A stretch of 39,628 bases of DNA, taken from the NCBI GenBank assembly GCA_949288145.1, contig CASEJD010000022.1:1-39628 (forward strand). The letters run 5' to 3'. This document shows positions 20,426-32,974 of this stretch, in pieces. The translations under genes were made by a program, and so were the position numbers. Positions within the stretch are counted from its first letter, which is position 1. The number at the start of each line of letters is the position of its first letter. Source of the DNA: an uncultured Coriobacteriia bacterium. Its GTDB lineage: Bacteria; Actinomycetota; Coriobacteriia; Coriobacteriales; Eggerthellaceae. The notes beneath the pieces were generated by a model. The model ran no database searches, was not told the DNA's origin, and saw nothing but the letters and a program-made list of their open reading frames with translations.

Positions 20426-20545
20426 TGCAGGTTTTCGCGAAGTTGGGAGGGTTCGTGAGCACACCTTAGGAACAGTTCAATGACCAGGCATTTTGCATGC
20501 GTGACTGAGCGTGCGCGGCGTTCGGTATTGCCGAGAGGCGCGACG

Positions 20546-20570
20546 GAGTGTCCCTATCGTAAAAGCGTCA
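20546..20570 (+). repeat. Repeat copy B
   Basis: GAGTGTCCCTATCG (20546-20559), a 2-base spacer and AAAGCGTCA (20562-20570). It has the same order as copies A and C but lacks a flanking inverted arm. Confidence 0.6.
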
Positions 20571-20573
20571 ACA

Positions 20574-20647
20574 AAAAGGGCCTCTCTCGTGCAAATGGAC
20601 GAACGGAGTGTCCCTATCGCGCAAAGCGTCAGGGGACAGGCCCTTTT
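20574..20647 (-). terminator. Large stem downstream of the DMT permease
   Basis: AAAAGGGCCT (20574-20583) pairs with AGGCCCTTTT (20638-20647), enclosing repeat copy C. On the minus strand the second arm runs into TTTTTGT, so it could terminate the DMT permease transcript about 85 bases after its stop. Confidence 0.5.
20606..20631 (+). repeat. Repeat copy C
   Basis: GAGTGTCCCTATCG (20606-20619), a 3-base spacer and AAAGCGTCA (20623-20631). It forms the apex of the stem at 20574-20647, where TGTCCC can also pair with GGGACA (20632-20638). Confidence 0.6.
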
Positions 20648-20722
20648 GCGCAGCATCATTGGTGGTTCGGTGGGGTGCGGTGACGTCCTTGTTGTGGGTG
20701 TTGGCGCGACTGTGGGCAAAAC

Positions 20723-20740
20723 GCGTACGCTTACGAGTGC
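20723..20740 (+). repeat. 18-bp direct repeat, right copy
   Basis: This copy of GCGTACGCTTACGAGTGC overlaps the last codons and stop (20731-20733) of the DMT permease gene. A duplication at a gene 3' end is typical of site-specific integration sites, but no integrase lies between the copies. Confidence 0.75.
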
Positions 20741-21702
20741 GATTGCCCGAGTCTGCGGGGGCGTGATGGCAGGGAGACGAGGACTACCATGGCCACCATG
20801 AGGGCGAAACCTGCCCAGTCTGCGGTGGAGATGGCGGTGCCCATCCACCAGGCGCCGATGAGCATGGCGGCAAGCGGCTCGAGCGCGCCCAGGAGGCTGC
20901 CGGTCACGGGGCCTGCGTGGTGGATGCCGTTCACGTACAGCCAGAACGCGGCGAACGTGCCCAGCACGGCAACGCCGCCGAAGAGCGCGAGCGCGCCGCT
21001 CGCATCAAACGCTGGCAGTTGGAACGCGCCCACGGACGCGGGCGCGCCCGCAGGCGTAGAGGCCAGCTGGGAACCGGCCCAGAGGAGCGTTGAGAGCACG
21101 GCGTTGAACATCATGCCAACCCCGCACGACGTGAACGCGCCGAAGCGCGCGAGCAGCTGGCGCGGGTACGCCACGTAGAACGCGGTTGAGACGCCGTTCA
21201 CAAGGCCCAGGGCAAGGCCTGCCGCGGGCAGGACGAGCGTGGAAGGGTCGCCTTGCGTCGCGATGAGCCACACGCCACCCACCGCGCACAAAAAGGCGCC
21301 GAGCTCGCGGACTCGGGGGAACGCCCGCGCGGAGAGCGCGGTCCTTATGAGCACGAACGCTGTCGAGGACATCTGCAGCACGGTGGCGGTGCCAGCGTTG
21401 GTGGCGGCGATGGAGAGCGCGTAGAAGAACTGGCTGCCGAAAAGCCCGAGGCCGAACAGCGCGTGCTGCGCAAGGAGCCTGCGGTTCGAGAGAATGAGGC
21501 GCAAGTTGGCGCGGTCGGTCGCGGAGATCACGGCAAGGAACAGCACCGCTGCCACCACGGAGCGCACCATGGTGGCGAACAGCGACGAAACGCCGAACGC
21601 GGACGAGAGGTACTGCAGGCACACGCCCGAAAAACCCCAGAGCAGCGCGCCGGCCGCGGCGCTCAGAATGCCAAGGTGCTTGGTGGTGGCGTCCAGGGAC
21701 AC
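20731..21702 (-). CDS. DMT-superfamily (EamA) permease
   Basis: A 323-aa membrane protein with about 10 hydrophobic helices in two EamA halves, each of about five. The N-terminal GALLWGFSGV and the second-half PLAAMLIGAWWMGT segments are typical of drug/metabolite transporters of this family, which mostly export amino acids or other small metabolites. The substrate cannot be assigned. The GTG at 21702 has GAGGAGG 4 bases upstream, a strong site. Its last codons and stop lie in the right copy of the 18-bp direct repeat, so its 3' end may have been an insertion target. It is divergent from the Nif11-type peptide gene, but nothing shows that it exports that peptide. Confidence 0.88.
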   Translation of the reverse strand: MSLDATTKHLGILSAAAGALLWGFSGVCLQYLSSAFGVSSLFATMVRSVVAAVLFLAVISATDRANLRLILSNRRLLAQHALFGLGLFGSQFFYALSIAATNAGTATVLQMSSTAFVLIRTALSARAFPRVRELGAFLCAVGGVWLIATQGDPSTLVLPAAGLALGLVNGVSTAFYVAYPRQLLARFGAFTSCGVGMMFNAVLSTLLWAGSQLASTPAGAPASVGAFQLPAFDASGALALFGGVAVLGTFAAFWLYVNGIHHAGPVTGSLLGALEPLAAMLIGAWWMGTAISTADWAGFALMVAMVVLVSLPSRPRRLGQSHS

Positions 21703-21890
21703 GGTGCCTCCTCTCGGGTTCTTGCTGTGCGTTCCGGCGGGGGATTATACCGCTGGAACGCAACCGAAGAACCCCCCATGGGCGCCGGCACTCATTCCGG
21801 GAGGGCTGCGTTCATGCCGCGTACGTCCGTGCGTCGATTCGCGTGGTGTATGCTTGCAGTGACAAAAGCACACGCGAGAAAGGACTGGTC

Positions 21891-22127
21891 ATGGAGGCGA
21901 AGCACGAAGCGTTGCTGGAGAAGCTGCAGGTCGCCAAAACGGCAGAGGACGTGCTTCAGGCCGCTCAGGAGGCGGGCGTCGAGCTGACCGCAGAGCAGGC
22001 GGTGCAGGTTCTTGCCGAGCGCGATGCCGAAGTGGCCGAAGGCGAGCTTTCCGACGATGCGCTCGCTGGCGCCACCGGCGGTGTTAGTTGGACGAAGCAC
22101 CTCGTCGATCTTCTCTTCGGAAAGTAA
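21891..22127 (+). CDS. Nif11-type leader peptide with double-glycine site (putative RiPP/bacteriocin precursor)
   Basis: A 78-aa small acidic protein. Residues 1-62 look like a Nif11-family leader: a helical EALLEKLQVAKTAEDVLQ segment, then VELTAEQAVQVL, then the ELSDDALAGATGG cleavage motif with GG at 63-64. After it come 14 residues, VSWTKHLVDLLFGK, an amphipathic and basic core. The leader type and GG motif are what C39-peptidase ABC exporters recognise (family knowledge). The core has no Cys, one Ser and one Thr, so lanthionine formation is excluded and an unmodified or differently modified peptide is more likely. The start at 21891 has AAAGGA 6 bases upstream; an in-frame ATG at 21843 lacks one. 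No maturase, peptidase or exporter is adjacent. A terminator follows at 22157. Confidence 0.72.
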   Translation: MEAKHEALLEKLQVAKTAEDVLQAAQEAGVELTAEQAVQVLAERDAEVAEGELSDDALAGATGGVSWTKHLVDLLFGK

Positions 22128-22156
22128 CGGCAGCTTCCAAGCAATTGAGCATGTGA

Positions 22157-22193
22157 AAGGGCGCCCGCCTCGGAGCGGACGCCCTTCGTGTTT
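22157..22193 (+). terminator. Terminator of the precursor-peptide gene
   Basis: Positions 22157-22168 pair with 22175-22186 with one mismatch, followed by CGTGTTTC. It lies 30 bases past the peptide stop. Confidence 0.6.
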
Positions 22194-22325
22194 CTCGGGC
22201 AGTGCGATGTGCTGTCGGCGCCAAAGTGGTGGTCTCGATTACGTGCGCGGTATGGCGAAGAACGTTTCGCGCAGGCGGCGTGGAGGAAGGTGCGCATGAT
22301 CGCGGCGCGGTCGAGGGGCGGGTGC

Positions 22326-23153
22326 TTACCGAGGGAGGACGTAACAGTCGTAGCGCACAGCCTTGCCTTCGATGGAGTGGCTGGGCTTCTTGCCCGCGAG
22401 CCAGGGACCCTTCGGTGGGCGCTTCACCACGACCTTCCGCGGGCGCGCCGCGAACGTCGCCGCCAGGAGCTCCTCCTCGTCGTCGCACGGGCGCTCGAGA
22501 TGGTGTAGCAGCTGGAACTTCTTCTTGACCGCCGCGCTCTTCGTGCGTTCAGGGAACATGGGGTCGAGGTACACCACGTCAGGCGCCGGGTCCAGGCCGG
22601 GCAGCTCGACGGTGCTGTCGCCGGGCAAGAGATCCATGCGCGAAACGACCTCCGCCAATGCGGGGTCGAGCGCCGCGCGGCGCAGTGCGTCTTGCAGCAT
22701 GAGTGCGATTACGGGGTTGCGCTCGAACAGGCGCACCTGGAATCCAGCCGCCGCCAGCAGAAGCGAGTCCTCGCCCAGGCCGGCGGTGGCGTCCACCACA
22801 GTGGGGTGCGCGTCAGGCGCAAGGCCCTTCAGGCGGGCGGCCTTCACAAGCAGCTCGCCGCGCAGCCTGCCTGGCTTCAAGCGGGGGAGCATTCGCCCGA
22901 AATCCTGCCGCAGCGTCATGCCGTCACCCTCAAGGGCGAGGCCGTTGGCGTCTGCACGTAGGACGACGATCGCGCCGGCGGCCTCTTCGGCAGTGCGCGC
23001 AAGCGGCGCGCCCAGGAGCGCCGCCGCTTGCTCGGCGGCAGGCAGCCCCGCCTCATCGGCCGCGAAGACTACAAGCGCGTTCGAGCGCCCACCGTTCGAC
23101 GGGTCGACTCGCACTCTGCTGTGAGCGGGGGCTTGCTCGCGTGTTCGTATCAT
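22326..23153 (-). CDS. rsmJ: RsmJ-like 16S rRNA (guanine-N2) methyltransferase
   Basis: A 275-aa SAM-dependent methyltransferase. RsmJ methylates N2 of G1516 of 16S rRNA in E. coli. Matching blocks are the SAM motif VDATAGLGEDSLLLAAAG near 118-135, the acidic end of the next strand (LFERNP), and the family signature LDPMFPERTKSAAVKKKFQ, which combines a DPMF catalytic motif with a basic stretch. The C-terminal VVVKRPPKGPWLAG also fits. The ATG at 23153 overlaps the marR stop by four bases (ATGA), and AAGGA lies 8 bases upstream inside marR, so translation is probably coupled and the gene should share the autoregulated marR promoter. Why an rRNA methylase is joined to a drug-type regulator is unclear. 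It converges on the precursor peptide gene. Confidence 0.88.
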   Translation of the reverse strand: MIRTREQAPAHSRVRVDPSNGGRSNALVVFAADEAGLPAAEQAAALLGAPLARTAEEAAGAIVVLRADANGLALEGDGMTLRQDFGRMLPRLKPGRLRGELLVKAARLKGLAPDAHPTVVDATAGLGEDSLLLAAAGFQVRLFERNPVIALMLQDALRRAALDPALAEVVSRMDLLPGDSTVELPGLDPAPDVVYLDPMFPERTKSAAVKKKFQLLHHLERPCDDEEELLAATFAARPRKVVVKRPPKGPWLAGKKPSHSIEGKAVRYDCYVLPR

Positions 23154-23722
23154 GCTTCACGTCCTTGCGCCGTGTCTGCGTGGCGCTCGTGCTCAGATGC
23201 GCCATTGCCAATGGAATCTGCTGCCTGCTCGCATGCGCGCGCTCTTGTGCGCCCCAGCTCGATATCGCGCAGTTTGCACAGCAGGCGCTCTGCCGTCCGC
23301 GACGCCTCGAGAAGTTGACTGCGCTCTTCCTTCGAGAGCAGTGCAAGGCGCGTGCGCACGTCTTCTGCCGCCTCTCGCTTGTGCTCGTGACAGAGCCTCT
23401 TGCCGCGCTCGGTTAGGGAGATCTCCACAACGCGGTGTTCGCGCGAACTGCGCTCTCGCTTGACGAAGCCAGCTTCCACGAGCGGCGCGACTGAGCGGGA
23501 GGTCTGCTCTTTTGACACCGCCAGATGGTCGCTCATCTGCGTCATGCTCATGGTGCCGAACAGGTCGAGCCCGATGATGACGTCCATTTGAATCTTCGTG
23601 AGCTTTGCACGCTGCGCCATCACGGTGCGACGTCCGAAGTTGTCGTATGCGCCCATAGCCTTGAGGAGCGCCACCTCCGGCGCGGTCGCGAGGTCATCGT
23701 GCTGTGTTCGATCGTCGTTCAT
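23150..23722 (-). CDS. MarR-family transcriptional regulator
   Basis: A 190-aa winged-helix repressor-type protein. The core has the MarR pattern: LTKIQMDVIIGLDLFGTMSM, the recognition region MSDHLAVSKEQTSRSVAPLVEAGFV, and the wing KRERSSREHRVVEISLTERGK. The C-terminal tail (about 145-190) is charged and longer than in short MarR proteins. The ATG at 23722 has GAGG 5 bases upstream; an in-frame ATG at 23767 lacks one. It is divergent from a drug exporter and its promoter lies in two palindromes, so it most likely represses itself and the exporter until a ligand binds (family knowledge plus inference). It overlaps rsmJ by 4 bases. Confidence 0.9.
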   Translation of the reverse strand: MNDDRTQHDDLATAPEVALLKAMGAYDNFGRRTVMAQRAKLTKIQMDVIIGLDLFGTMSMTQMSDHLAVSKEQTSRSVAPLVEAGFVKRERSSREHRVVEISLTERGKRLCHEHKREAAEDVRTRLALLSKEERSQLLEASRTAERLLCKLRDIELGRTRARACEQAADSIGNGASEHERHADTAQGREA

Positions 23723-23784
23723 GCTTGCCTCGAGAGAGTTCGTGCCGCGCGTGCAGTGCGGTCTCATGTGTCCGATAGGTGGCG

Positions 23785-23813
23785 ATTCTATGGAGTCGTT
23801 TGACGAATGTCAA
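23785..23813 (-). promoter_or_regulatory. marR promoter
   Basis: On the minus strand TTGACA (23808-23813) and TAGAAT (23785-23790) are separated by exactly 17 bases, near consensus. The -35 lies within the left palindrome, so bound MarR would block it. Confidence 0.65.
23800..23813. promoter_or_regulatory. MarR-type operator 1
   Basis: TTGACGAATGTCAA is an inverted repeat with one mismatched pair. It carries the -35 elements of both divergent promoters and is centred 31 bp (about three helical turns) from operator 2. Confidence 0.65.
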
Positions 23814-23828
23814 TTAATTGGGGATAAC
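23800..23828 (+). promoter_or_regulatory. Promoter of the MFS-CBS exporter
   Basis: TTGACG (23800-23805) and GATAAC (23823-23828) are separated by 17 bases. The -35 lies in the left palindrome, and the right palindrome covers the expected transcription start. The leader would be about 100 bases. Confidence 0.6.
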
Positions 23829-23829
23829 G

Positions 23830-23845
23830 TTTGACGAACGTCAAA
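23830..23845. promoter_or_regulatory. MarR-type operator 2
   Basis: TTTGACGAACGTCAAA is a perfect 7-2-7 palindrome, just downstream of the exporter -10. It shares half-sites and spacing with operator 1. Confidence 0.7.
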
Positions 23846-23932
23846 TGAGAGTCATGTGACACGAGAGCGCGCACCGTCATAGAGCGAAAGGACGGCGCGC
23901 TTTGGTCGGTAGCGATGCGTCAGTAGAAAGGG

Positions 23933-27618: not shown

Positions 27619-27638
27619 GTGCTCAGTTTTGTGAGCAC
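27619..27638 (-). terminator. Short hairpin overlapping the kinase stop codon
   Basis: GTGCTCA (27619-27625) pairs with TGAGCAC (27632-27638) around the last codons of the minus-strand kinase gene. It is short and lacks a T tail, so its role is uncertain. Confidence 0.25.
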
Positions 27639-29230
27639 TCGTCCTCCGGGAACACGAGCGTCGCGGCGAAGCCCGTACCCGGGCCTTCGCTGGCGAAGAG
27701 CACGGTGCCGCCATGGGCGCGGGCGATACCGCGCACGAGCAACAGTCCCAGGCCGTGGGCGGCGATGCCGTCACCTCGGCGCTGCGCCGCGTCGCCCAGG
27801 CTCGCGGGGCCGTTCTGCAGGTCCACGAGCGCGGCGGCGTCCACGCCCGCGCCATTGTCTGCCACGCGGACGTACCAGGCGGTGCCCGGGCGCACGCCAC
27901 CAGGGAACGCGACGGCGGACGCGTCGCCGATGCCCAGGCTCACGTCGATGCGGCAGCCGTCCGGGTTGTGGGTGACGGCGTTCTGCAGGAGGTTCCGCAG
28001 CGCGCGGCCGAGCAGGCGCCGGTCGGCGCGGAATCTCACGTCGGCGGCGCGCGGGTCCACGTCGAGCGAGAGCTCGTAGAGCGCGGGGTCGACGCTGTCG
28101 ACGAACTCTGCCACCGTCGTCCGCGCGAGCGCGGCGGGGGAGAGCTCCTCGGGGCGCATGGGTTGCAGGTCATACTCCAGGTGGGAGGCGAGGTTCAAAT
28201 CCTCCACCAGATCGCGCATCTTCATGCTCTGTGCGCGGATGATGGACGCCTCGGTGCGGGCGCGCTCGGGCACGGTCTTGTCGTCGGCGATGCGGTCGGC
28301 GTATCCCATCACCATGGACAGAGGCGTGCGGACGTCGTGCGAGACGCCGCTGATCCAGTTCGCCCGTGCGCTGTCTTTCGCGCGAATGACGTCGGATGCG
28401 GCGTTCACGTCGCTTGCGATGTCGGCAAGCTCGCCGTGCGCTTCGACGGAGGCGGGCTCTCCCTTCGCAAGCTTGCCGATGCCTTCGGAGATGGGCTCGA
28501 TGCCCTTCACGACCGACCGGCGCGAGATGACGTAGGCAACAAACAAAAAAGCGAGGTCAACGAACAGGATGACGGCCGCACCCGCGCCGAGCGAGGCGAA
28601 CGAGCTTCCTGAGAATGACGTCGTGGGGAAGACGACGCGGCTATTCTTGGGGTACACGAGTACGAGCAGCGTGTCCGCGCCCACGCTCGCCTCGCCGGCG
28701 ACGGAGTCGTCGCTTTGCGGCGTCTCGGCGTCGGACGCGTCGACGATCGGGTTGTCGGCCGGCGTGTAGACGAAGGCCGGGTGCCCGTCGAACGCGCCGT
28801 AGTGCGCCACGAGCGCGATGTCCTGCGCGGTGGCGGGCAGGACGGCGTTGTCCGGCGCGCCCTTGCTCGTCCAGACGACGCTGCCGTTCGCGGCCATGAG
28901 GAATCCCCACACGCCCTCGGCGTCAAGGCGCTCTTCCATCTCGGGCGCAAGCCGCCAGCCGTCCTCTTCCTGCTCAAGCGAGGCGCACACGCGCGTGGAG
29001 AGCTGCGTGGGGCCAGTGGTCTCGTCGGCGCCGCCCTGCATGCCGTAGACGGCGATGGCCACGTACAGCACGAAGTCCACAACGACGATGGCGAAGAGGA
29101 GCGCGCAGAACAGCAGGAAGTACTTGCCTACGAACACGGTGATGCCGCCCGAGCGTCGGCGCTCGCGACGGCGGGCGCGCTCCTGCGTGCGCGCCTGGGC
29201 AGGGTGGACAGGGTTGGACGGGCGCTTCAT
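27623..29230 (-). CDS. Sensor histidine kinase with extracellular domain
   Basis: A 535-aa membrane sensor kinase. After a basic cytoplasmic start there is a TM near 30-62, an extracellular domain of about 140 residues, a second TM near 206-232 and a short linker. The HisKA box is WISGVSHDVRTPLSMVMGYADRI with His298. The HATPase has NLLQNAVTHN (N box), VADNGAGVD and GLGLLLVRGIARAHGG. It should phosphorylate the response regulator, whose gene overlaps its start by four bases (ATGA). It is divergent from an ABC pair like BceAB. Classical BceS-type kinases have almost no extracellular loop and sense through the permease; this one has its own sensor domain, so signal detection may differ. The ligand is unknown. 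Confidence 0.92.
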   Translation of the reverse strand: MKRPSNPVHPAQARTQERARRRERRRSGGITVFVGKYFLLFCALLFAIVVVDFVLYVAIAVYGMQGGADETTGPTQLSTRVCASLEQEEDGWRLAPEMEERLDAEGVWGFLMAANGSVVWTSKGAPDNAVLPATAQDIALVAHYGAFDGHPAFVYTPADNPIVDASDAETPQSDDSVAGEASVGADTLLVLVYPKNSRVVFPTTSFSGSSFASLGAGAAVILFVDLAFLFVAYVISRRSVVKGIEPISEGIGKLAKGEPASVEAHGELADIASDVNAASDVIRAKDSARANWISGVSHDVRTPLSMVMGYADRIADDKTVPERARTEASIIRAQSMKMRDLVEDLNLASHLEYDLQPMRPEELSPAALARTTVAEFVDSVDPALYELSLDVDPRAADVRFRADRRLLGRALRNLLQNAVTHNPDGCRIDVSLGIGDASAVAFPGGVRPGTAWYVRVADNGAGVDAAALVDLQNGPASLGDAAQRRGDGIAAHGLGLLLVRGIARAHGGTVLFASEGPGTGFAATLVFPEDECSQN

Positions 29231-29949
29231 GCGCGCTTCCTGACGTTCAGCCGGTAGCCGAGCCCCTTCGCGGTGACGAGGCTTTCAGGACGGGACGGGT
29301 CCGCCTCGATCTTCTCGCGCAGGCGGCGCACGTGGGTCATGAGCGAGTTCTCGTAGCCGAAGCACGCCGGCCCCCACAGCTCCTCGCACAAAGCGTCGAT
29401 CGTGACGATGCGCCCGGCGTTGCGCGCGAGCGCCTCGAGCAGCGAGAGCTCCTTGGCCGTGAGCTGCGCCGTGGTGCCGTCGGCGCGGTGGACCTCGGCG
29501 TTGTCCATATCGACCGTGCAGGCGGCGAGCGCAAGCTCCGCGTTGGCGGCGTCCTGCGGGTAGCAGCGTCGCAGGATGGCGCCGATGCGCAGCGTGAGTT
29601 CCTGCGGCAAGAACGGCTTCACCAGGTAGTCGTCCGCGCCAAGCGTGAGGCCCGAAAGGCGGTCCTCGGGACGGTCCTTCGCCGTGAGGAACATGACGGG
29701 CAGGCGCGGGTCCATGGCGCGCAGCTGCCGCGCGAGCGAGAAGCCGTCGCCGTCGGGCAGCATGACGTCGAGCAGCGCGAACTCCGGCGCGAACCGCTGG
29801 AACTCCGCCAGCGCCTCTGCATGGTCCGCGGCGAACGCAAGGTTCGTATACCCCTCGTCTTCCAGCACCGCGCGCACGAGCGCGCGGATCTCCGGCGCGT
29901 CGTCAACGACGAGCAGGCGTTTCGTGTGTATGCGGTCGATGGCTCCCAT
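29227..29949 (-). CDS. OmpR-family response regulator
   Basis: A 240-aa two-domain regulator. The receiver has VVDDAPE (Asp16 and Asp17), phospho-acceptor Asp61 in FALLDVMLPDGDG, Thr in FLTAKDR and Lys in LVKPF. The C-terminal winged helix (about 140-238) has LTAKELSLLEALARNAGRIVT and SLMTHVRRLREKIEADP with the family ending GYRLNV. It is partnered with the kinase (ATGA overlap). It probably activates the divergent ABC operon, where a pair of GTwAGGA direct repeats 11 bp apart (30000-30017) is a plausible site. No clear ribosome binding site precedes the ATG at 29949, while a -10 lies six bases upstream, so the message is probably leaderless. Confidence 0.92.
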   Translation of the reverse strand: MGAIDRIHTKRLLVVDDAPEIRALVRAVLEDEGYTNLAFAADHAEALAEFQRFAPEFALLDVMLPDGDGFSLARQLRAMDPRLPVMFLTAKDRPEDRLSGLTLGADDYLVKPFLPQELTLRIGAILRRCYPQDAANAELALAACTVDMDNAEVHRADGTTAQLTAKELSLLEALARNAGRIVTIDALCEELWGPACFGYENSLMTHVRRLREKIEADPSRPESLVTAKGLGYRLNVRKRA

Positions 29950-29955
29950 GCGCCC

Positions 29956-29984
29956 ATTCTTGCAGCCGCCCCGGCGCCTCGCAA
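29956..29984 (-). promoter_or_regulatory. Promoter of the response regulator, apparently leaderless
   Basis: On the minus strand TTGCGA (29979-29984) and AAGAAT (29956-29961) have a 17-base spacer, and six bases separate the -10 from the ATG. The arrangement is the same as for acpS. Confidence 0.5.
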
Positions 29985-29999
29985 GCGATGGGCAGGAAA

Positions 30000-30017
30000 G
30001 TTAGGAAAACGTAAGGA
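30000..30017 (+). promoter_or_regulatory. Direct repeat upstream of the ABC operon
   Basis: GTTAGGA (30000-30006) and GTAAGGA (30011-30017) lie 11 bp apart start to start. This is the spacing of OmpR-family binding sites. They are about 75-90 bases before the ABC ATPase gene. Binding by the adjacent regulator is inference. Confidence 0.4.
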
Positions 30018-30090
30018 CGGCGCCAGGACCGCGCAAGGCTGCCTCGCGAGCATAGGGTGCGAGCAATTCACCCGATTGAAAGGAGCCCCC

Positions 30091-30876
30091 ATGGCAACTC
30101 AGTGCGCGCTCGACGTGCGCAACGTCACGAAGGTGTACGGCGGCCGCGGCAAGCGGACTGACGTCGCGCGGACCATCGCGCTCGAGAACGTGAGCATGCA
30201 GGTGGCGCCCGGCGAGTTCGTCGCCATCATGGGGCCGTCGGGCTCCGGCAAATCCACGCTGCTCAACTGCATCAGCACCATCGACGTGCCCACGAGCGGA
30301 CAGATCGTCATCGGCGGGCGCAACGTGGAGCGGCTGTCCCGTCGCGAGGTGGCGCGCTTCCGCCGCGACGAGCTGGGCTTCGTCTTCCAGGACGCGAACC
30401 TGCTCGACACGCTGACCGCCTACGAGAACATCGCGCTCGCGCTCACCATCAAGCACGTGCCCGCGCGCGAGGTGGACGTGCGCGTGCGCGAGCTGGCGCG
30501 CACGCTGGGCATTTCCGACGTGCTCGAGAAATACCCGCACCAGCTTTCGGGCGGTCAGCGCCAGCGCGTCGCCGCGGCGCGTGCCACGGTGGGCGACCCG
30601 ACGCTCGTCCTGGCCGACGAGCCCACCGGCGCGCTGGACTCCAAGAGCGCGAAAACCCTGCTCGAGACGTTCTCGCTGCTGAACCAACGCGGGTCGACCA
30701 TCGTCATGGTGACGCACGACAGCTTCACCGCCAGCTGCACCGAGCGCGTCGTCTTCATCAAGGACGGTCACTTGTGGGGCCACTTGGAGCGCGGTGGCAA
30801 GGACCGCAAGGCGTTCTTCGCCGACATCGTGTCGGTCACGACGAAGCTGGGAGGCGACCAAGATGATGTTCTGTAA
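30091..30876 (+). CDS. ABC transporter ATPase, BceA/LolD-like
   Basis: A 261-aa nucleotide-binding subunit. Walker A is GPSGSGKSTLLN near 50, the Q-loop is FVFQDANLLDTLTAYENI, the signature is LSGGQRQRVAAARA, Walker B is LVLADEPTGALDSKS and the switch His is in MVTHDS. This matches the MacB/LolD/BceA class that works with FtsX-type permeases and drives shape changes, not classical transport. AAAGGAG lies 5 bases before the ATG at 30091. The gene overlaps the permease start by 14 bases. With the divergent two-component pair it forms a likely antimicrobial-peptide detoxification module (family knowledge; ligand not known). The C-terminal about 25 residues extend past the usual end. Confidence 0.93.
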   Translation: MATQCALDVRNVTKVYGGRGKRTDVARTIALENVSMQVAPGEFVAIMGPSGSGKSTLLNCISTIDVPTSGQIVIGGRNVERLSRREVARFRRDELGFVFQDANLLDTLTAYENIALALTIKHVPAREVDVRVRELARTLGISDVLEKYPHQLSGGQRQRVAAARATVGDPTLVLADEPTGALDSKSAKTLLETFSLLNQRGSTIVMVTHDSFTASCTERVVFIKDGHLWGHLERGGKDRKAFFADIVSVTTKLGGDQDDVL

Positions 30877-32974
30877 GCTGGCCTGGGGAAACGTGCGTCG
30901 CAGCGCGCGCGATTTCGCCCTGTACTTCATGACGCTCGTCTTCGGCGTGAGCGTCTTCTACGCGTTCAACTCCATCACCGACCAGCAGGCGGTCTTGGCG
31001 CTGGAAGGGCAGAGCGGCGGATTGCTGGAGCTGCTCGGCATGCTCATCGGGGGCGTGTCGGTGTTCGTGGCGGCCATCCTGGCGTTTCTGGTGGTGTACG
31101 CCGACCGGTTCCTCATCCGCCGGCGTAAGCGCGAGTTCGCCGTGTACCTGACGCTCGGCATGCAGCGCGGACAGCTCGCGCGCTTGGTGGCGCTCGAGAC
31201 CGGCATGATCGGCGTGGCGTCGCTTGCGGTAGGCATCGCGCTGGGCGTGGGGCTCTCGCAGGTGCTCATGCGCGTGACGGCGTCGTTCTTCGGCGCGGAG
31301 GTGCCGGGGTTCGCGTTCGTGTTCTCAGAAGGGGCGCTCGCCAAGACGCTCGCGTGCTTCCTCGTGATCTTCGCCGTGACCATCGTCTCGAACTCGGGCG
31401 TGGTCATGCGCGCGCGGCTGATTGACTTGCTGTTCGCCTCGCGGGCGAGCGATGAGATGAAGTTGCGCAGCATCCCGCTGTCCTTCGCGCTGTTCGTGGT
31501 GGCGTGCGTCGTCATCGGCGTCTCGTACCATCTGCTGCTGGAGAACGGGCTCATGTCGGCCTCGCCGCAGTTCTACGCCGCGACGGCGCTCGTGTGCGCG
31601 GGCACGCTCCTGTTCTTCTACTCGCTTTCCGGCTTCTTGCTGCGCGCGGTGCAAGCGTGCCGCCCGCTGTACCTGCGCGGCCTGGCCATGTTCACGCTGC
31701 GGCAGCTGAACGCGCGTGTGAACTCTACGTTCCTGTCCATGAGCGTGATCTGTATGACGCTGTTCCTGGCGCTCACGAGCGTGTGCGGCGGCATCGGCAT
31801 CTGCAACGCGCTGCAGGAGAACATCGAGGCCACCACGAGCTACGACGCCACCGTCACGACGTACTGGGGAAATCCGGTGAACGCGGGGGAGGACGACGGC
31901 GTGACCGTCCTTGACTCCCCGTACGGCGCCTACGCGCGCGAAGTGGATTTCGACATGGCGCGCGGCTTGGCGGAGTCGGGGGCGCTGCTGGGGCAGCCGG
32001 CGTGGGATGCCATCGTGCAGCGCTCGGCGCAGGTGGACTACTGGGTCTCGACGACGCTCACGTACGCGACGCTCGACGAGCATGCGGACCTGAGCCTGAC
32101 CGAGCAGGGCGGAGACCTCATGTCGCCGGACTGGCAAGCTTCGCCCGTGCCGTACGTGAGGCTTTCGCAGTACAACGCGGCGCTCGAGCTGGCGGGACGG
32201 GAGCCCATCTCGCTCGGTCCCGACGAGTGCGCGCTTGCCGGCGACTCCGACATCACGCTGTCGTGGCTTCGCGACGTGGCGGACTCCCAGCCCATCCTGG
32301 ACGTTGAGGGCATCCAGCTGCGCGTGGTGGAAGCCGTGCAAGACGCGTGCGTGGAGACGTCGAGCATCCCGCTGCAGGCGGGCGCGCTCATCGTGCCGGA
32401 CGATGCGGTGCCTGAGGGGCTTGTGCTCTACCGCACGATCCTTGATGTCGACTACGTCGACGGCAACCCCGACGCGGAAGCGCAGTTCGCCGCCTTGTGT
32501 GACGCCGTGAACGACACTGCCGAGGAGCGCACGTGGCCGGTCACGACCTCCCTCACGCGCCAGCAGGTGTGGGATCAGAACATGGGGCTCACCGCCATCG
32601 TGGGCTACCTGGCGGTCTACATCGGCTTCATCCTCGTGGTGGCGTCAGCGGCCATCTTGGCCATCCAGCAGCTCTCGGGCGCGTCCGACAACGCGGGGCG
32701 CTACGCGCTGCTCGCGAAATTGGGAGCGTCGCGCAAGCAAGTGACGGCGTCCGTGCTCGTGCAGGTGGCAGTGTGCTTCGCGTTCCCGCTGGCGCTCGCG
32801 TTGGTGCACACGGTGTGCGCGTTCCAGGTGGTGGCCGACGTGGTCTCCGCGTTCGGCCACCTGGACATCACGGCGGCTGCCGGCATGACCGCCGCGGCGT
32901 TCCTGGGGCTCTACGGGCTGTACTTCGCGCTCACGTGCGTTGGCAGCGTGGGGCTGGCGCGCGGGGACCGGTAG
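30863..32974 (+). CDS. FtsX-type ABC permease, BceB-like
   Basis: A 703-aa membrane subunit with about ten helices. The first half has a TM near 16-38, paired helices near 55-80 and the FtsX segment RRRKREFAVYLTLGMQRGQLARLVALETG. After the helix around 300 comes an extracellular domain of about 250 residues (about 320-570). The last three helices follow, with the second FtsX segment YALLAKLGASRKQVTASVLVQVAV. This layout is that of BceB-like permeases, whose large loop binds peptide antibiotics or lipid intermediates. The ATG at 30863 has GGAGG 8 bases upstream inside the ATPase gene, so translation is coupled. An ATG at 30866 is equally possible. A terminator follows at 33043. Confidence 0.88.
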   Translation: MMFCKLAWGNVRRSARDFALYFMTLVFGVSVFYAFNSITDQQAVLALEGQSGGLLELLGMLIGGVSVFVAAILAFLVVYADRFLIRRRKREFAVYLTLGMQRGQLARLVALETGMIGVASLAVGIALGVGLSQVLMRVTASFFGAEVPGFAFVFSEGALAKTLACFLVIFAVTIVSNSGVVMRARLIDLLFASRASDEMKLRSIPLSFALFVVACVVIGVSYHLLLENGLMSASPQFYAATALVCAGTLLFFYSLSGFLLRAVQACRPLYLRGLAMFTLRQLNARVNSTFLSMSVICMTLFLALTSVCGGIGICNALQENIEATTSYDATVTTYWGNPVNAGEDDGVTVLDSPYGAYAREVDFDMARGLAESGALLGQPAWDAIVQRSAQVDYWVSTTLTYATLDEHADLSLTEQGGDLMSPDWQASPVPYVRLSQYNAALELAGREPISLGPDECALAGDSDITLSWLRDVADSQPILDVEGIQLRVVEAVQDACVETSSIPLQAGALIVPDDAVPEGLVLYRTILDVDYVDGNPDAEAQFAALCDAVNDTAEERTWPVTTSLTRQQVWDQNMGLTAIVGYLAVYIGFILVVASAAILAIQQLSGASDNAGRYALLAKLGASRKQVTASVLVQVAVCFAFPLALALVHTVCAFQVVADVVSAFGHLDITAAAGMTAAAFLGLYGLYFALTCVGSVGLARGDR

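Follow-up and report, generated by a model that had tools for sequence, protein, structure and literature searches.

In most accounts, Nif11-type peptides appear as precursors of modified products, often rich in cysteine, that are made in local gene clusters. The stretch of DNA analyzed here (39,628 nucleotides in total, hereafter the window) comes from a gut bacterium of the Eggerthellaceae and harbors a gene for a precursor of this type that stands alone and encodes a core without any cysteine. We lean towards the reading that the gene encodes a Nif11-derived double-glycine (GG) precursor of the N11P type that would be cut after Gly64 by a C39 peptidase, with the 14-residue core being exported, most likely unmodified, by an NHLM system encoded on a different contig (C50) of the same genome to serve as an extracellular signal or narrow-range antimicrobial. 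The precursor probably belongs to a familiar class of secreted peptides; that it is cleaved and exported, stays unmodified and has an activity is what we infer from gene content and comparison.

The precursor open reading frame (ORF) is a real small gene (Table 1), because it has a syntenic orthologue of 87% identity and has been subject to purifying selection. This orthologue is encoded by Candidatus Aveggerthella excrementigallinarum (G021; contig DVLD01000169.1) as the single copy from the same genus, Aveggerthella, among 138 genomes of the family that were searched, and a species-level genome scan again found this known Aveggerthella orthologue alone. Gene order around it is the same as in the window, i.e., genes for a SAM methyltransferase, a MarR protein, an MFS/CBS protein and a kinase/regulator set adjoin the precursor. 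Of the changes between the two genes, 20 are synonymous and 10 nonsynonymous (dN/dS about 0.12; binomial p about 1e-6), which indicates that the precursor gene is under purifying selection. Its codon-usage score, trained on the neighboring genes, is positive as well (+21.6 log units).

The signals flanking the gene are modest. The ribosome-binding site ends 6 nt ahead of the ATG, and upstream DNA aligns poorly with that of the orthologue except for the stretch comprising the -10-like hexamer and this site; no sigma-70 site was found at the hexamer in a consensus scan. Downstream, the GC-rich hairpin is not stronger than shuffled sequences in the window (z -1.2) and reaches z -3.1 at the same place in G021; a clear U tract is lacking. 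An Rfam scan of positions 20500-23900 gave no match, and the repeats around the gene amount to a single chance-like 15-nt pair.

Table 1. Features of the precursor gene and its surroundings (window coordinates).
Feature	Position	Strand	Remarks
Nif11-type precursor ORF	21891-22127	+	78 aa, ATG start, own ribosome-binding site
Ribosome-binding site GAGAAAGGA	21876..21884	+	Read from sequence; identical in orthologue G021
-10-like hexamer TATGCT	21849..21854	+	36 nt 5' of start codon; same hexamer at matching place in G021; weak
Nif11-type leader, residues 1-64, ending ELSDDALAGATGG	21891..22082	+	Pfam Nif11 above cut-off, TIGR03798 below
Core, residues 65-78, VSWTKHLVDLLFGK, without Cys	22083..22124	+	First nine residues same in G021
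Stop codon	22125..22127	+	From sequence
GC-rich hairpin, possible terminator	22157..22186		Between convergent Nif11 and methyltransferase genes

The precursor reads MEAKHEALLEKLQVAKTAEDVLQAAQEAGVELTAEQAVQVLAERDAEVAEGELSDDALAGATGG (leader) followed by VSWTKHLVDLLFGK (core). It just passes the Pfam Nif11 model (PF07862; E 4.3e-5, 24.1 bits with a cut-off of 23.8) and scores below the cut-off of TIGR03798, the NCBI model of the Nif11 leader / N11P family (E 1.7e-6, 28.2 bits with a cut-off of 32.3), on which its orthologues reach 29.0 and 24.9 bits. The GG motif occupies residues 63-64, with L-12, S-11, L-7, A-4, G-2 and G-1 counted back from the cleavage site, and it closes the conserved region with a variable core after it, as in N11P precursors. 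The likeness to this family (TIGR03798; Haft, Basu and Mitchell 2010, PMC2887384) extends from the Nif11-type leader with its ELSDxxLxxxxGG end and the variable C-terminal core to the presence of an NHLM exporter in the genome, whereas the precursor differs from it by falling under the TIGR03798 cut-off and by having neither exporter nor maturase linked to its gene. Cysteine is absent from leader and core alike, and the core contains one serine and one glycine. The first-pass annotation had described a Nif11-type GG precursor with a 14-residue cysteine-free core, which the Pfam match, the position of the GG motif and the conserved orthologue bear out. Its description of this core as basic and amphipathic did not survive, since the core carries a net charge of just +1, its helical hydrophobic moment is the same as for shuffled sequences (p 0.50), and related cores from other genera are acidic on the whole (net -1 to -3). 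An AlphaFold2 model built from a two-row alignment (mean pLDDT 74.8) predicts three helices in the leader, a linker of low confidence at residues 56-63 and a core helix of modest confidence.

Relatives of the precursor share this overall layout. Between the window and G021, core residues 1-9 (VSWTKHLVD) are invariant and the last five read LLFGK vs FILGR. A genome of another genus (G019; 92% complete) encodes a relative of 44% identity with the core VLWMEHILDLFK, located downstream of an apparent gene for a formate-dehydrogenase alpha subunit. Furthermore, a profile search retrieved orphan, syntenic precursors from two genomes in another family of the same order, with the cores IAWGEVIDKFLDEML and IAWGEVIDRVIGGLV; they matched no Nif11 model in NCBIfam, so that it is the profile search and the shared layout that tie them to the precursor. 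When their alignment was searched against the 67 genomes of their own family, it recovered those two and one marginal match, i.e., this subgroup is patchy. All five cores lack cysteine and carry tryptophan at position 3, and the GG motif and docking pattern are retained among relatives whose cores differ in length and C-terminus. Many other Nif11-type matches in the order carry cysteine-containing cores. One apparent relative, in genome G093, proved to be a false match inside a long transporter-like ORF, and no relative was found in the viral contigs searched. Separately, a locus of genus g56 (L091, G150:C73, 309-2030) contains a run of several small GG genes, some of them with cysteine-free cores, e.g., GIIATVEEWFTVALPALFR and GSYSFHPPIIGPDGRVFPPPQW.

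No maturase or C39 exporter is encoded in the window, as had been noted at first pass; the window has an ABC system (ATPase at 30091-30876 and FtsX-type permease at 30863-32974, plus a two-component pair), but this is not a peptide-cleaving exporter. A remote exporter had been suggested instead, along with a genome-wide search for C39 ABC exporters, and the source genome (G000; 2.1 Mb in 181 contigs, 98.4% complete) indeed holds a single Peptidase_C39 match over the cut-off, located on C50 and not on the contig of the precursor. This protein is a complete NHLM ABC1 (TIGR03796, 943 bits with a cut-off of 853.3) in which the Cys, His and Asp motifs of C39 are present by inspection. It is followed by ABC2 (TIGR03797, 749 bits with a cut-off of 709.4), and ahead of it lies a 156-residue ORF whose similarity to the NHLM HlyD protein is limited to the start of that protein (TIGR03794, 27.9 vs 156.2 bits). 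With ABC1 and ABC2 over their cut-offs, the locus resembles the NHLM/NHLP bacteriocin export system (TIGR03796, TIGR03797, TIGR03794), but it differs in the partial HlyD-like ORF and in that the precursor lies away from the exporter. The two are not linked, the exporter locus of G000 lacks a Nif11 precursor, and a comparison by eye of the regions upstream of the exporter, its adjoining LytTR gene and the precursor gene brought out no evident common promoter motif.

Precursor and exporter are nonetheless associated across the family. Nif11-type matches and an over-cut-off exporter co-occur in 10/14 vs 15/123 cases (Fisher p about 5e-6; 11/13 when counting a truncated exporter gene and leaving out a false match), a count of genomes that share ancestry rather than of independent events. 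The complete genome G052 has Nif11 precursors placed between ABC1/ABC2 and a regulator of the SnoaL-LytTR type, which adjoins the exporter also in G000 and G021, and N11P genes adjoining such NHLM exporters have already been reported for Eggerthella lenta (PMC2887384). Conversely, neither a C39 domain nor an NHLM ABC1 was detected in G019. For a single exporter locus that serves a peptide from another locus, ComAB and BlpC provide a precedent (PMC5295010). At the exporter locus itself, a 66-residue ORF with the GG-type motif PLTDADLELVLGG followed by LVELPDDPADALADLTPTEALPE (L025, G000:C50, 11690-11890, minus strand) lies directly upstream of the SnoaL-LytTR gene and is conserved in three Aveggerthella genomes (G000, G021 and G022). 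It has no Pfam or NCBIfam match and is possibly a further GG peptide of this locus.

How the precursor could use the C50 exporter is suggested by LahT150, a C39 domain that cleaves Nif11 leaders attached to widely differing cores and engages positions -12, -7 and -4 for docking (PMC6363468). Because L-12, L-7 and A-4 of the leader match these positions, we infer that ABC1 on C50 cuts and exports the 14-mer: the leader would dock via these residues on the C39 peptidase domain, ABC1 would cut after Gly64, and the core would leave the cell through the C50 ABC system, most likely without post-translational modification, to act outside as signal or narrow-range antimicrobial. The lah cluster of Lachnospiraceae (PMC6363468) is similar in that a C39 protein cuts Nif11-type leaders at GG while tolerating very different cores; it differs in that lah peptides come from a lanthipeptide cluster, whereas here the core has no cysteine and no synthetase is encoded near the gene.

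Export by the NHLM system is favored by the leader match with its GG and docking pattern, by purifying selection on leader and core in the orthologue, by the complete ABC1-ABC2 pair as the only over-cut-off C39 exporter of the genome, and by the co-occurrence in the family together with the linkage in G052 and Eggerthella lenta (PMC2887384); the core tolerance of LahT (PMC6363468) and cross-locus export by ComAB/BlpC (PMC5295010) point the same way. Against it stand the lack of a detectable exporter in G019, the missed TIGR03798 cut-off, the unlinked position without a common promoter motif, and the radical-SAM/SPASM maturase encoded elsewhere in the genome. A conserved, cysteine-free and unlinked precursor with its sole candidate exporter elsewhere suggests that, in common gut bacteria, NHLM exporters handle linear peptides encoded at scattered loci as well, and that unlinked peptides with Nif11 leaders are overlooked when mining relies on gene clusters. 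The prediction is small and directly testable, involving one 14-mer, one protease domain and one exporter.

Lanthionine rings are excluded because the core has no cysteine, just as the first-pass annotation had argued. Its statement that there is no maturase is true of the window, where no radical-SAM maturase lies next to the precursor or beside the orthologues, but not of the genome, which encodes a radical-SAM/SPASM enzyme on C28 (L108, 2690-4108), a short contig that has no cysteine-rich Nif11 gene. This enzyme, or another unlinked one, could modify the core before export, e.g., by a W-T-K crosslink, and thereby yield a cysteine-free RiPP, which we consider unlikely but worth keeping in view. 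The enzyme is of a kind found beside Nif11 genes, and the invariant first nine core residues include conserved Ser, Trp, Thr, Lys and His. However, its homologues in G022 (90% identical; L029, G022:C26, 4114-5523) and G306 (82% identical; L093, G306:C87, 8680-10140) both adjoin cysteine-rich Nif11 genes, and the source genome has such a gene, its second of Nif11 type, on C120 (L026, 10924-11260, minus strand), for which reasons the C28 enzyme probably serves cysteine-rich Nif11 peptides. In addition, no SPASM protein was detected in G021 (86% complete), which has the peptide and so favors an unmodified product, and no modifying gene was found beside any of the three close orthologues. Modification of the 14-mer therefore appears unlikely, and it would probably be secreted unmodified. 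Other GG-leader genes, a search for which had been proposed at first pass, were sought with TIGR03798 and by reading contigs, and the resulting list for this genome may be incomplete. The C120 gene appears frameshifted relative to an intact relative in G306 (L093, 7799-8404), and a protein-kinase gene with a small neighbor lies beside the cysteine-rich Nif11 gene in both genomes (L026, G000:C120, 9055-10764; L093, G306:C87, 4931-6907), which belong to different families.

It is rather improbable that the 14-mer is specifically a linear pheromone, released through the NHLM exporter and perceived by a regulator of the LytTR type, in the manner of competence or bacteriocin-inducing peptides. Such a role would fit a short, cysteine-free and partly invariant core, the SnoaL-LytTR gene beside the exporter in G000 and G021 (in G052 also together with Nif11 precursors), and a set of genes on C149 (L107, 4848-7652) in which a REC-LytTR regulator is followed by two membrane/kinase-like ORFs, one of them carrying the genome's sole detected HATPase_c_5 domain. 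Yet neither regulator is linked to the precursor gene, LytTR genes have other roles, and no peptide gene was seen beside the C149 set. Unlike in ComCDE/BlpRH-type systems, no receptor kinase and LytTR regulator are linked to the peptide gene. Similarity to the competence peptides CSP-1/CSP-2 was unconvincing after correction (best p 0.0015 among 16 comparisons). The double-glycine pheromones CSP and BlpC exported by ComAB (PMC5295010) resemble our case in the short linear core behind a GG leader, the C39 exporter, the LytTR regulators in the genome and possible service by an exporter encoded elsewhere, but differ in that the leader here is a long Nif11-type domain without a linked receptor. 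As for a bacteriocin, the precursor has a GG leader and no obvious immunity gene beside it. It is more doubtful still that Coriobacteriia use cysteine-free Trp-3 peptides with Nif11 leaders as pheromones more generally, with one NHLM exporter releasing several scattered GG peptides that LytTR regulators (SnoaL-LytTR or the C149 set) would read; if the pheromone reading were true, a RiPP-type leader and exporter would serve a quorum-sensing system.

Least probable is that the precursor escapes cleavage and export altogether, being either a small protein of the cytoplasm or what evolution has left of a Nif11 leader. This would agree with the solitary gene, the missed TIGR03798 cut-off and the G019 gene without a detectable C39 exporter, but is at odds with purifying selection, with the co-occurrence of leader and exporter, and with the GG and docking pattern that persists among relatives despite variation in core length and C-terminus.

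Elsewhere in the window, genes for a histidine kinase, a response regulator, an ABC ATPase and an FtsX-type permease follow in a row (27623-32974) and are reminiscent of BceRS-BceAB peptide-sensing/resistance modules; in G021 the kinase and regulator genes occupy the same place.
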